Shown here piece by piece: positions 39,735-43,491 of a stretch of DNA of 64,000 nucleotides. Under the pieces are notes generated by a model, which was not told the DNA's origin, did no database searches, and was given only the letters and a program-made list of their open reading frames with translations. Source of the stretch: Candidatus Krumholzibacteriota bacterium. GTDB lineage: Bacteria; Krumholzibacteriota; Krumholzibacteriia; Krumholzibacteriales; Krumholzibacteriaceae. The stretch spans positions 1 through 64,000 of the forward strand of contig JAFGBF010000027.1 in NCBI GenBank assembly GCA_016933255.1. Direction: 5' to 3'. Made by a program: the position numbers and the translations under genes. Each line of letters begins with the position of its first letter. Positions within the stretch are counted from its first letter, which is position 1.

Positions 39735-42209
39735 ATGCAGATATCGAAGATTACAGAAGTTCTGAAAAAATTGAGGACCGATACTACGGCCTCGATCGAA
39801 TCTTCTATCACAGCTGTGGAAGACGCTATCAGTCAACTGGTTCGAGTGGAGGCTTCAGTACTGGAGCTTCCGATCCACCGTACGGTCTACCTTTCAAGGG
39901 CTTTACCCGGATTGTCCCATCAGGATATGGAGAGACTTTTAGAAACCGGATCGAGCGAACGGACTGAATGGATCAATCTCGACGGCGGGTTCGGGGAGGT
40001 ATCGAACGGAGAAAAATACCCGCTCTATTCTGTTACCAAGGTTCCGATCCATGGCAAGGATGAGGTGTCGGGATATTTCTCAGTAGTGACTTCGGGCGAT
40101 TCAGCTATCGAAAGAGATAAGAAAGAATTCCTTGAAGAACTGGTCCTGGCAGTATTCCCTTCTGCTATTGCCGAATTTGAGAAAAATCGTATCAATGATT
40201 CGAATGCTGATATTAAGGAAAAATTCCTGAAAGGCACAGGCAACAGTCTTCTTATGAAAGAGACTCTTCTCGGAATGATGGACAGGACAGGAGCTGAATT
40301 CTGTGCGTACTACAGCGAGAGCGGGGAAATCAATCTCCATATTCTTCTTGCGAGCCGTGAGTTGTCTGTAAGGATACCTGATATAAGGGAAAAACTTATA
40401 AAAACAAATATGATGTTCTCGAACTCAAAGGGGGAAGAGAGTCCATGCCGGGACAGGGTCTACTTGAAAAGCGGAGAAAGTAATATTTCTTATCTTATCG
40501 GAAATTCAGAGATCAAGAGTTATTTTCTCGTTCCCGTGATCTCAGGTCTTCGTGTAAGTGGAACACTGTTCTTCGGAAGTATCAGGAGCGATGCTTTTTT
40601 GAGGGAGGATATAGAATATATAAAAAATCTGGCCGACAGGGAAGATTCCGAAAAACCTGTTATCTACAGGATGGGCGGACAGCTTGATATCCTGGGCAGT
40701 CTGGTGGATCAGCTGACGATCCCCTGCGCCCTGATATCCCATGATGGATACATATTGAGTTCGAACCTTGAATTTTCCTCCTTGCTGAAACTCAGCGATG
40801 AACCTCATGAACGTATCTCATCGCTGGACGAGATGACTCCTTTTTATTTCAGCGGGATATGGAATGAATTTCAATTGATCGGTGCGGATATTAAAGACAG
40901 GGAGTTATACAGCGCCGAGTCAAACGACTCGTGCCTGTCTGTCGATATGATCCATCTTCATAATCTGTCAAAAGAGACGGGGTCGCTACTTCTGATCAGG
41001 GATATCTCCGAAAAGATGGTGAGAGAATCTGAAAGGGAAGAGATCCTGGCAGTAACTGCTCATGAACTCAGAACGCCTATGACCGCTCTTAAGAATTCTC
41101 TGAAGATCATCGCGGAAAGCCGTTCTGAAAGTATACAAACAGGCGGCACTGAAAAAATGGTATTGAGTGGAGAGGGCAGGTTCTTCGATATTGCTATCCG
41201 TACAATAGACAGGCTGAACCTGCTTGTAAACGGCCTTGTGGATACCTCTTCTGTAAGGAAATACGATCATTCCGTACTGACCGTCGAAACAGATACCAGA
41301 CATTTTCTGGAAGATGCAAGCAGGCTTTTCACGGCTTCAATGGAAAAAAAGGATATCAGTTTCACAATAGAGGTCGAAAAAAACGCGAGCAGACTTGTGT
41401 TTGATCAGATGATGATGGAACAGGTCATACAGAACCTTCTATCCAATTCGTTGAAATATGTTCCCTCGGGCGGATCTATAGCTTTAATAGCATCGTCTTC
41501 AGAAGATCTTTTTGCCAGATATGATGACGCTTTCTACGGGTTGATCAAAGACCCTCGATTTGCCGAGATAGTGATTGCGGATTCCGGGCCTGGGATACCT
41601 GACGAGGTGTCATCGATATTCAGTGTAGCAGGTAATGATTCACTTAAGAGCAAAAACCCTGTGCGCGGCCTCGGACTGTATATCGCTAACAAGATAATAA
41701 CGATGCATGGAGGAAGCCTGCATTTTGAAAATCCGGGATATAAGGGAAGTTCCATAAGCATCAGGATACCGGCTGACAGAGAGACCGGTGACGCGGCAAG
41801 ATCGATAGGTTCTGTCTGTGGACAGATAGATTCAAGTATTTCAAAAGGATATCATCCTGTTGTCTATTCCATGTTCAAGGAGACTGATGGTTGCTGGTTC
41901 GATATTGCTGCTGAATGGAAAGTCCGCCCTGATATCAGTCCATTGCCGGGAAGCGTAAAAGACAGAGGGATATATCTATGGCCTGTAAACCGGGATGCAG
42001 CTCTGGCCATGACTCTTGATAAGAGATCACAGGATAATCCTCTGTTTTTCATGAATAAAAGCAGAGGCGGGCTCAGTCTTGTCGAAGATGATCCTTCCGA
42101 TCATATCGTGATCGGTTGGTCTGTTTTTCCGATTGACGGAAAAATTTCAGGTGAATTGATAAGAAACGCTGCAACAGTGAAGATTCATAAGAAAGTCGAA
42201 ATAACTTAG
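39735..42209 (+). CDS. Soluble sensor histidine kinase with GAF/PAS-like sensors and an extra C-terminal domain
   Basis: The 824-aa kinase has no membrane segment. The N-terminal ~140 residues are unassigned, ~165-305 look GAF-like, and ~315-425 look PAS-like (PCALISHDGYILSSNLEFSS, LLLIRDISEKMV). HisKA lies at ~432-510 with ILAVTAHELRTPMTALKNSL (H443). HATPase runs to ~680: MEQVIQNLLSNSLKYV, VIADSGPGIPDE, RGLGLYIANKII and GSSISIRIPA. The last ~140 residues (690-824) form a further domain containing a WFDIAAEW strand and no receiver signature. The response regulator follows 14 bases later, so the pair is almost certainly cognate. It senses an internal signal. Confidence 0.92.
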   Translation: MQISKITEVLKKLRTDTTASIESSITAVEDAISQLVRVEASVLELPIHRTVYLSRALPGLSHQDMERLLETGSSERTEWINLDGGFGEVSNGEKYPLYSVTKVPIHGKDEVSGYFSVVTSGDSAIERDKKEFLEELVLAVFPSAIAEFEKNRINDSNADIKEKFLKGTGNSLLMKETLLGMMDRTGAEFCAYYSESGEINLHILLASRELSVRIPDIREKLIKTNMMFSNSKGEESPCRDRVYLKSGESNISYLIGNSEIKSYFLVPVISGLRVSGTLFFGSIRSDAFLREDIEYIKNLADREDSEKPVIYRMGGQLDILGSLVDQLTIPCALISHDGYILSSNLEFSSLLKLSDEPHERISSLDEMTPFYFSGIWNEFQLIGADIKDRELYSAESNDSCLSVDMIHLHNLSKETGSLLLIRDISEKMVRESEREEILAVTAHELRTPMTALKNSLKIIAESRSESIQTGGTEKMVLSGEGRFFDIAIRTIDRLNLLVNGLVDTSSVRKYDHSVLTVETDTRHFLEDASRLFTASMEKKDISFTIEVEKNASRLVFDQMMMEQVIQNLLSNSLKYVPSGGSIALIASSSEDLFARYDDAFYGLIKDPRFAEIVIADSGPGIPDEVSSIFSVAGNDSLKSKNPVRGLGLYIANKIITMHGGSLHFENPGYKGSSISIRIPADRETGDAARSIGSVCGQIDSSISKGYHPVVYSMFKETDGCWFDIAAEWKVRPDISPLPGSVKDRGIYLWPVNRDAALAMTLDKRSQDNPLFFMNKSRGGLSLVEDDPSDHIVIGWSVFPIDGKISGELIRNAATVKIHKKVEIT

Positions 42210-42223
42210 GAAGGAGAAAAGGG

Positions 42224-42637
42224 ATGGATCAATACAGGATCCTGATCGTCGAGGATGATGAAGATATAGTCGAGACCGTCAAATACAGTCTCGAACTCAG
42301 GGGTTTTAATGTCGATGTGGCATATGACGGGTTACATGCTCTGCGTAAGGCGCACAGAAATGAATATGATCTTATGCTGCTGGACATAATGCTTCCAGGA
42401 AAGAACGGTTATGAAGTCTCGCGGATTCTCAAACAGGAAATGGACGCAGGAAAGATAAAGCCATTCAGGATCCTTGTTCTAACAGCTCGAAAAGTAGACA
42501 ACCCTGAGAGAGAAGATTTTCTGGCTACCTGGTCGAATGCTGACGAGTATATGTACAAACCGTTCGAGCTTGATGATCTTATGGAGCGGATCGCGCACCA
42601 CCTCGAACAAAATGATAATGAGGTCAAACTGGGTTGA
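42224..42637 (+). CDS. Receiver-only response regulator
   Basis: A single CheY-like domain of 137 aa with no output domain: RILIVEDDEDIVE (acidic D11/D12), YDLMLLDIMLPGKNGYEV with D54 as phosphoacceptor, FRILVLTARK and ADEYMYKPFELDDL with the conserved Lys. It must act by protein contact or as a phosphate relay. It is sandwiched between a large soluble histidine kinase and a PAS-HisKA protein, both likely partners. Confidence 0.94.
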   Translation: MDQYRILIVEDDEDIVETVKYSLELRGFNVDVAYDGLHALRKAHRNEYDLMLLDIMLPGKNGYEVSRILKQEMDAGKIKPFRILVLTARKVDNPEREDFLATWSNADEYMYKPFELDDLMERIAHHLEQNDNEVKLG

Positions 42638-42695
42638 CAGTTGCGGGTGCCATGCTGTTCCTGCGGCAAAGGTGATAATAAGGAGAAACGGATCG

Positions 42696-43370
42696 ATGCA
42701 GCCGAGTAAATACCTTGCCAAAATTTTTGACAGTTCCCCTGTTGCAATGGTATCTCTGGATACGCGATTGAGGATCATGCTGTTCAATCGTCTTGCCATG
42801 GCCCTCACTGGATTCACAAATATGGATCTTGCGGGTAAACGGGTCACTAAACTAATTTCTCTGGAAAAAGTCAAAGAGATAATTGACCTCTACAGAAATG
42901 AAAAAGATTTTGAATCGAACGGACACATTGCAAAACTTCGCAGGGCTGAAGGCCGGGATATTCCGGTCAGAATCAAACTTTCACTGATAAAAGACAGTGA
43001 AGACCGGCTGGTGGGAATATTGATCCTGGCTTTGGATATGCGTGAGATAAAGGAATTGCAATCGAAGTTGATAGAAGCGGAAAGACTGAAGGCTATATCA
43101 GAAACTGCTATCAGCGTCAACCACGAGATCAATAATCCGCTCTGCTCGATACTGAGTAATACTCAACTCATGCTTATGCAGAGAGAGAATCTTGATCCGA
43201 ATATCGAAAAGAAACTTCGCAGCATCGAAAAACAGATATCGAGAATACAGGATATAGCAAAGCAGATCGGAAAGATCAATGATCCAGTTCTAAAAGAGTA
43301 TATAGGCGGAAAAAAGATGCTGGATGTGGAACGTTCCGGAAAAAGATCTAAAAATCTCCTTAAAAAATAA
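42696..43370 (+). CDS. PAS-HisKA protein lacking an ATPase domain
   Basis: Starting at ATG 42696 (AAGGAG 10 bases upstream), the 224-aa product has a PAS domain (~1-115: IFDSSPVAMVSLDTRLRIML, ESNGHIAKLRRAEGRDIPVR) and a HisKA/DHp helical pair (~122-195) with AISVNHEINNPLCSILSN, H143 being the expected phosphoacceptor. It then ends with a basic tail (GKRSKNLLKK). No N, G1 or G2 box of HATPase_c follows: the stop is 45 bases before tRNA-Phe. It cannot autophosphorylate unless a kinase in trans does so. With the full kinase and a stand-alone receiver upstream, a phosphorelay or dimerisation role is plausible. The frame stays open upstream to 42537, across the end of the response-regulator gene. 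Confidence 0.85.
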   Translation: MQPSKYLAKIFDSSPVAMVSLDTRLRIMLFNRLAMALTGFTNMDLAGKRVTKLISLEKVKEIIDLYRNEKDFESNGHIAKLRRAEGRDIPVRIKLSLIKDSEDRLVGILILALDMREIKELQSKLIEAERLKAISETAISVNHEINNPLCSILSNTQLMLMQRENLDPNIEKKLRSIEKQISRIQDIAKQIGKINDPVLKEYIGGKKMLDVERSGKRSKNLLKK

Positions 43371-43415: not shown

Positions 43416-43491
43416 GGGAAGGTAGCTCAGTCGGTAGAGCAACGGATTGAAAATCCGTGTGTCGGCGGTTCGATTCCGCCCCTTCCCACCA
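43416..43491 (+). tRNA. tRNA-Phe (GAA)
   Basis: A complete 76-base cloverleaf with acceptor GGGAAGG/CCTTCCC, D-arm GCTC/GAGC, anticodon stem ACGGA/TCCGT around TTGAAAA (anticodon GAA), a 5-base variable loop, T-arm GGCGG-TTCGATT-CCGCC, discriminator A and encoded CCA. Confidence 0.98.

Follow-up and report, generated by a model that had tools for sequence, protein, structure and literature searches.

The 64,000-nt stretch analysed here (hereafter the window; positions 1 to 64,000 of contig JAFGBF010000027.1, assembly GCA_016933255.1, of a Candidatus Krumholzibacteriota bacterium) carries three genes lying head to tail on the + strand, which encode a histidine kinase of 824 amino acids, a lone receiver of 137 amino acids and a protein of 224 amino acids that joins a PAS sensor to a DHp phosphoacceptor domain and lacks the ATPase domain of a kinase (Table 1). 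This third protein, referred to below as PAS-DHp, is the main subject of the present work. The kinase and receiver genes are 14 bp apart, the receiver and PAS-DHp genes 58 bp, and another 45 bp lead to the tRNA-Phe gene. A longer alternative open reading frame for PAS-DHp, beginning at 42537, would overlap the receiver gene, and a scan for promoters and terminators gave no usable result. An initial annotation of this DNA had described the three genes, the phosphoacceptors H143 of PAS-DHp and D54 of the receiver, and the N, D and G boxes of the kinase, and sequence and Pfam place all of them where it had put them.

Table 1. Features of the kinase, receiver and PAS-DHp cluster, in window positions.
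Feature	Position	Strand	Evidence
Sensor histidine kinase, 824 amino acids	39735..42209	+	Open reading frame; Pfam; H443 and N, D and G boxes; orthologues at 30-61% identity adjoining a receiver
Kinase C-terminal domain, ~690-824	41802..42206	+	20-row alignment; AlphaFold2; Foldseek
Lone receiver, 137 amino acids	42224..42637	+	Pfam Response_reg, E 3.3e-21
AAGGAG, ribosome-binding site for PAS-DHp, 10 nt upstream of ATG 42696	42680..42685	+	Sequence
PAS-DHp protein without ATPase, 224 amino acids	42696..43370	+	Translation; Pfam; orthologues; AlphaFold2 (pLDDT 85.3)
PAS domain, residues ~5-116	42708..43043	+	Pfam PAS, E 3.9e-9; AlphaFold2 model
Signalling helix and DHp hairpin (helices 116-161 and 168-192)	43041..43271	+	AlphaFold2 helices
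C-terminal family motif Y202-x2-G205-x2-M208-L-D210-x3-S214	43299..43337	+	Invariant in 18 orthologues; modelled as a short beta hairpin and helix
tRNA-Phe, end of cluster	43416..43491	+	ARAGORN

Besides PAS, Pfam recognises in PAS-DHp a HisKA domain (E 1.2e-7), with no match to HATPase even at E 10 and none to Hpt (PF01627), so that Pfam and the translation agree with the first description of a protein with PAS and a DHp histidine and without ATPase. The putative phosphoacceptor H143 (codon 43122-43124) lies together with E144 and N147 within the box NHEINNPL. In the AlphaFold2 model, the PAS domain is followed by a long helix that runs into DHp helix 1, then by helix 2 and by a hairpin at the tail motif. 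About 32 residues remain after the DHp domain, which carry this short hairpin motif and, according to both model and alignment, hold no degenerate CA-like domain. No membrane segment is apparent in the 224 residues, and the closest solved structure by profile similarity is that of ThkA (3a0r, E 7e-29). An ATPase domain hidden downstream was ruled out, as the initial annotation had argued, since the stop at 43370 is followed by the tRNA-Phe and a pyruvate-carboxylase-like gene and relatives never carry an ATPase there.

A protein search over 58 related genomes, after which the 25 genomes of the order covered here were all inspected, yielded 18 full-length PAS-DHp proteins including that of the window, the other 17 at 42-66% identity, and the reading frame is therefore no product of chance. 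These complete orthologues end about 80-120 residues past the histidine, all of them without ATPase. In a nineteenth genome (G017) the gene runs off the contig end and is incomplete; four others (G004, G005, G011 and G016) yielded no receiver and no PAS-DHp, the kinase lying at a contig end in G005 and G011; and in two (G022 and G023) kinase and receiver are followed directly by tRNA-Phe, PAS-DHp being absent. Where contigs permit, members of the bacterial order share the gene arrangement uvrA-galE-kinase-receiver-PAS-DHp-tRNA-Phe-pycB-like, except for the single-contig genome G007, which lacks the tRNA and pycB side. The tRNA-Phe is the neighbour at most loci of the order that have PAS-DHp and a long enough contig, as well as at both loci without PAS-DHp. 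The three genes stand together wherever the DNA is assembled, and the earlier proposal that they make up one signalling cluster, for which a search for the same order in related genomes had been suggested, is supported.

Outside the order, the outgroup family f7 has uvrA-galE-kinase-receiver without PAS-DHp, with tRNA-Phe downstream in two loci, which suggests that kinase and receiver are older and that PAS-DHp was inserted. The reverse event is recorded in G023, where ~17 codons from the 3' end of the PAS-DHp gene survive in the interval between receiver and tRNA-Phe (L172:807-927), reading EKKMLDVDVSPALEKIF just ahead of a stop and agreeing with the end of the protein in its congeners (KKMLDVEASTASEKTFS in L161). 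This remnant shows that the gene was lost through an internal deletion, and since kinase and receiver were kept the system can live without it. No stand-alone Hpt replacing the lost protein was seen in G022 or G023, where all Hpt matches fall in frames of 560-817 amino acids. Given these two relatives with kinase and receiver, PAS-DHp is a modulator or side branch of the system.

The deletion scar of G023 would also suit the idea that PAS-DHp is a recent truncation or a decaying pseudogene of a full kinase, to which we assign a negligible probability and which the comparisons refute. All complete orthologues and homologues share the same end, the tail motif has no counterpart in full kinases, and among the 25 genomes of the order covered here no relative with a full HATPase at this position was found, of which the window copy could be a truncated version, as the initial annotation had considered. 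Moreover, judging from the ratio of non-synonymous to synonymous substitution rates between close pairs (dN/dS 0.1-0.35), the gene is under purifying selection. Within the box, H143, I145, N146, N147, P148 and L149 are invariant in all 18 orthologues, which had been found by whole-protein similarity, and E144 is replaced by A or G in five of them. The acid adjacent to the histidine serves as general base when a kinase autophosphorylates (PMC7005713), and an invariant histidine beside a replaceable E144 therefore suggests that phosphoacceptor chemistry has been retained and that autokinase chemistry is dispensable.

A scan of 84,980 genomes extended these observations beyond the order. The best 80 relatives all end 67-133 amino acids past the histidine, and Pfam finds HisKA in 75 and HATPase in none of the 75 scanned proteins (the window protein included), along with GAF in 24, Response_reg in 19, PAS in 17 and HAMP in 7. 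About a dozen phyla are represented, including Zixibacteria, Latescibacterota, Fibrobacterota, Gemmatimonadota, Neomarinimicrobiota (Fidelibacterota) and Deferribacterota, and further Armatimonadota, KSB1, Calditrichota, Myxococcota and Bacteroidota, these being mostly metagenome assemblies in which the assignment of a single phylum is soft. Calditerrivibrio, which has been cultured, also carries family members (L148 and L152). Behind the DHp domain, most proteins of the wide set carry the tail motif Y-x2-G-x2-M-[LIV]-D (Y in 90, M in 85 and D in 69 of 93 sequences), and 66 full kinases show mostly gaps at these positions of the alignment. A search of 80 genomes of the phylum with a profile built from DHp and tail gave 18 matches at 114-136 bits over the full profile length, one per genome and all within this order; the remainder reach at most 55.4 bits and end at profile position about 71-82. 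In a tree (75 columns) of the 93 ATPase-less domains, which had been chosen by similarity to the query, and 66 full-kinase domains, two state changes are needed, and a single clade of ATPase-less domains was not rejected (p-AU 0.88). Altogether, these sequence comparisons point to a bacterial family that is coherent, consistent with one clade and marked by its own tail motif.

In the window's own genome (G000), the DHp plus tail profile finds no second member of the family. A profile search gave 22 HisKA matches, 20 of them with HATPase, the others being PAS-DHp and a protein of 649 amino acids on another contig (L184:607-2553, contig C25), in which HisKA spans 299-360, Pfam finds no HATPase and the C-terminal half has no assigned domain. 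Another candidate, L185, was taken as ATPase-less from its frame length and rejected, HATPase being present. No stand-alone Hpt was seen in this genome, the sole Hpt match lying in a frame of 580 amino acids (C18). The dimerising nature of DHp domains and the about 20 HisKA proteins with recognised HATPase would leave room for PAS-DHp as a heterodimer partner, paired with the 824-amino-acid kinase or with another full kinase and phosphorylated in trans. This arrangement is highly improbable, as the DHp sequences of the kinase (TAHELRTPM) and of PAS-DHp (NHEINNPL) align poorly, the tree separates ATPase-less from full-kinase DHp domains, and E144, the acid used in phosphorylation by an ATPase domain, is lost in five orthologues.

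The lone receiver has an acid pocket (E10/D11), the phosphoacceptor D54 (codon 42383-42385), T87, Y109 and K112, and D11, D54, T87 and K112 are invariant in 23 orthologues. Its identity over the order ranges from 75 to 94%. Median identities to the window proteins across the order are 80% for the receiver, 72% for GalE, 64% for UvrA, 50% for PAS-DHp and 34% for the kinase, the receiver exceeding UvrA, GalE and the other compared neighbours in conservation. Since it is about equally conserved in G022 and G023, PAS-DHp is not the cause of this conservation. In the wide set, 18 of the 93 homologues carry a receiver on the same chain as their ATPase-less DHp domain, as REC-PAS-DHp or REC-DHp fusions, and 14 of these fused receivers retain acid pocket, Asp, Thr and Lys. 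Three Latescibacterota loci have, after a REC-DHp protein, first a lone receiver or a pair of them, next a PAS kinase and then a REC protein of 451-452 amino acids.

The reading that we prefer, and to which we would give about an even chance, is that PAS-DHp acts as a sensor-gated histidine phosphotransferase that draws its phosphate from the receiver. Its only parts would be the PAS sensor, the DHp domain dimerised into a four-helix bundle and the short family-specific tail. Upon phosphorylation of the lone receiver at D54 by the 824-amino-acid kinase, the PAS-DHp dimer would dock on the receiver, and the phosphoryl group would move to H143 to an extent set by the PAS domain, from where it might go to another of the about 27 receivers of the genome or be lost. 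PAS-DHp would then behave like Spo0B or PhyT without even a degenerate ATPase domain, as a regulated side branch and not as an obligatory step. Phosphotransfer is favoured because the histidine is kept beside a dispensable acid, because fused receivers have a working Asp and because no stand-alone Hpt was seen; the lack here of the CA domain that is reported to stimulate phosphatase activity (PMC7005713) and the precedents of PhyT and Spo0B point the same way. Further arguments for it are the ATPase-less synteny block, the purifying selection, the conservation of the receiver above that of UvrA and the structure of ThkA with TrrA. Of the two roles that the initial annotation had put forward, the Hpt-like relay still offers the best reading, as a proposed route of phosphotransfer, and its use as an obligatory step is disfavoured by the two relatives without the gene.

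Several observations weigh against this proposal. Loci with kinase and receiver and without PAS-DHp, as in G022, G023 and f7, indicate that PAS-DHp is not the only output of the receiver, and no dedicated downstream regulator was identified. The FATGUY motif, a mark of relay receivers such as SdrG, MrrA and Sma0114 (PMC9981736), was not present on inspection of the receiver alignment, where the sequence reads LTARKV...EYMYKPF; the canonical T87/Y109/K112 switch is kept instead, so the receiver may act directly. The pattern used in the wide search contained VNHEINNP, and the invariance of the box in the wide set is therefore partly built in. N147, at the H+4 position tied to phosphatase activity, is as invariant as the histidine. 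Finally, four of the 18 fused receivers have lost the Asp (N, H, N and E in L101, L104, L146 and L081), with the DHp box intact. These last four would suit a non-catalytic decoy, the second role put forward initially, in which the DHp dimer only ties up the receiver or competes for it with the kinase and the histidine chemistry is irrelevant, and a DHp fold without ATPase could in principle dock a receiver by itself. Such a decoy is nevertheless improbable, as it would not need H143, retained in 18 of 18 orthologues together with N147 while the adjacent E144 drifts.

The main rival is a pure receiver phosphatase under PAS control, in which the DHp dimer would hydrolyse the phosphorylated D54 with the assistance of H143 and N147, nothing would be passed on, and the protein would set the duration of the signal. 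HisKA domains can have this activity, which has been proposed for archaeal HisKA-only proteins (PMC5847659), and in HisKA phosphatases the histidine is the general base (PMC7005713), so that its conservation fits a phosphatase as the invariant N147 does; dispensability in G022 and G023 also suits such a modulator. However, in HisKA kinases a nucleotide-bound CA domain stimulates the activity (PMC7005713), and PAS-DHp has none, and REC-DHp fusions with a working Asp make more sense as relay modules. Altogether, a phosphatase appears less likely than sensor-gated phosphotransfer.

Phosphotransferases derived from kinases are known in several relays. In the Spo0F-Spo0B-Spo0A relay of Bacillota, a kinase feeds a lone receiver and this a dimeric phosphotransferase of the DHp type, the arrangement proposed here for PAS-DHp; Spo0B keeps a degenerate CA-like domain. 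Unlike PAS-DHp, which has no CA-like remnant, Spo0B has no PAS domain, and the likeness is not known to extend to sequence kinship with Spo0B or to a counterpart of Spo0A. By analogy, the REC-DHp fusions described above may formally be seen as Spo0F joined to Spo0B. The phosphotransferase is the least conserved core protein of the Spo0 relay too (PMC12826061). In Sphingomonas, the Pak-SdrG-PhyT-PhyR relay runs through PhyT (PMC5898713), likewise kinase-derived and fed by a single-domain receiver via a conserved histidine. PhyT is anchored in the membrane and presumably holds a degenerated catalytic domain, whereas PAS-DHp has a PAS sensor, shows no membrane segment and lacks any remnant of a catalytic domain. 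ChpT, of the CckA-ChpT-CtrA/CpdR relay, is also a dimeric DHp histidine phosphotransferase (PMC3433190, PMC9981736); it differs in its degenerate CA domain, in lacking PAS and in having a hybrid kinase as donor, whereas PAS-DHp lies beside a lone receiver. In the ThkA-TrrA pair of Thermotoga (PDB 3a0r), the PAS and DHp domains of ThkA were crystallised in complex with the receiver TrrA, ThkA being however a full kinase with an ATPase domain.

Closest in architecture are the proteins with HisKA and without HATPase, which P2CS classes as phosphotransfer proteins or incomplete kinases (PMC2716373; 'possible incomplete histidine kinase') and for which a phosphotransfer or phosphatase role has been suggested in archaea (PMC5847659). 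They likewise combine a PAS or GAF sensor with a HisKA domain that conserves its histidine. HisKA-only proteins of archaea and the same two functional guesses were thus already known (PMC5847659), described by architecture only, and the family reported here is set apart by its bacterial hosts, tail motif, synteny and receiver fusions. No prior description of this bacterial family was found in the open-access literature. The present analysis adds that the bacterial proteins form a coherent family recognisable by its tail, that their gene order with kinase and lone receiver is conserved, that receivers are fused to some of them, and that the gene has been lost by a natural deletion and the autokinase acid by substitution. 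Annotation usually labels such proteins histidine kinases or incomplete kinases, and they then receive no attention. The conserved end, the tail motif, the invariant histidine beside a dispensable acid and the fusions, spread over about a dozen phyla, make it unlikely that they are debris. If a phosphate relay under sensor control were true, many orphan receivers would acquire a partner and bacteria would have more phosphorelays than are now counted; the 224-amino-acid protein, which has no apparent membrane segment, and the receiver of 137 amino acids make this testable in vitro.

More broadly, and only tentatively, the multi-phylum family of ATPase-less DHp proteins defined by NHEINNPL and the Y-x2-G-x2-M-[LIV]-D tail might join Hpt and Spo0B/ChpT as a third class of histidine phosphotransferase in bacteria, whose own sensor (PAS, GAF or REC) would let a second signal gate the flow of phosphate in mid-relay. 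In several phyla its gene is placed immediately ahead of the flagellar flgFG-AHI genes. At 15 loci, the gene for the ATPase-less DHp protein has flgF/flgG family members within a few genes on its downstream side, and flgA, flgH and flgI often come next (L079, L080, L082, L086, L088, L089, L094, L098, L105, L109, L114, L129, L130, L144 and L151). These loci come from KSB1, Calditrichota, Neomarinimicrobiota, Latescibacterota and others, several of them with upstream STAS and HATPase_c_2 genes or a sigma factor.

As for the kinase of the window, Pfam finds HisKA, with the phosphoacceptor H443 in TAHELRTPM, HATPase_c at 557-681 and a sub-threshold GAF at ~174-301. The region ~690-824, left unassigned by the initial annotation, has no Pfam or NCBIfam match and is, from its conservation among 20 aligned orthologues, a domain in its own right, in which W42, P57, W70 and G115 (domain numbering) are invariant. 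It carries no GGDEF motif. Its AlphaFold2 model (pLDDT 80.8) was compared with solved structures by Foldseek, and the top 30 PDB matches are all GGDEF-domain structures, with a best E of 5.2e-3, which is not significant, and TM scores of 0.46-0.51 for the best ten; a GGDEF-like fold is thus only a lead, suggested by the predicted structure.

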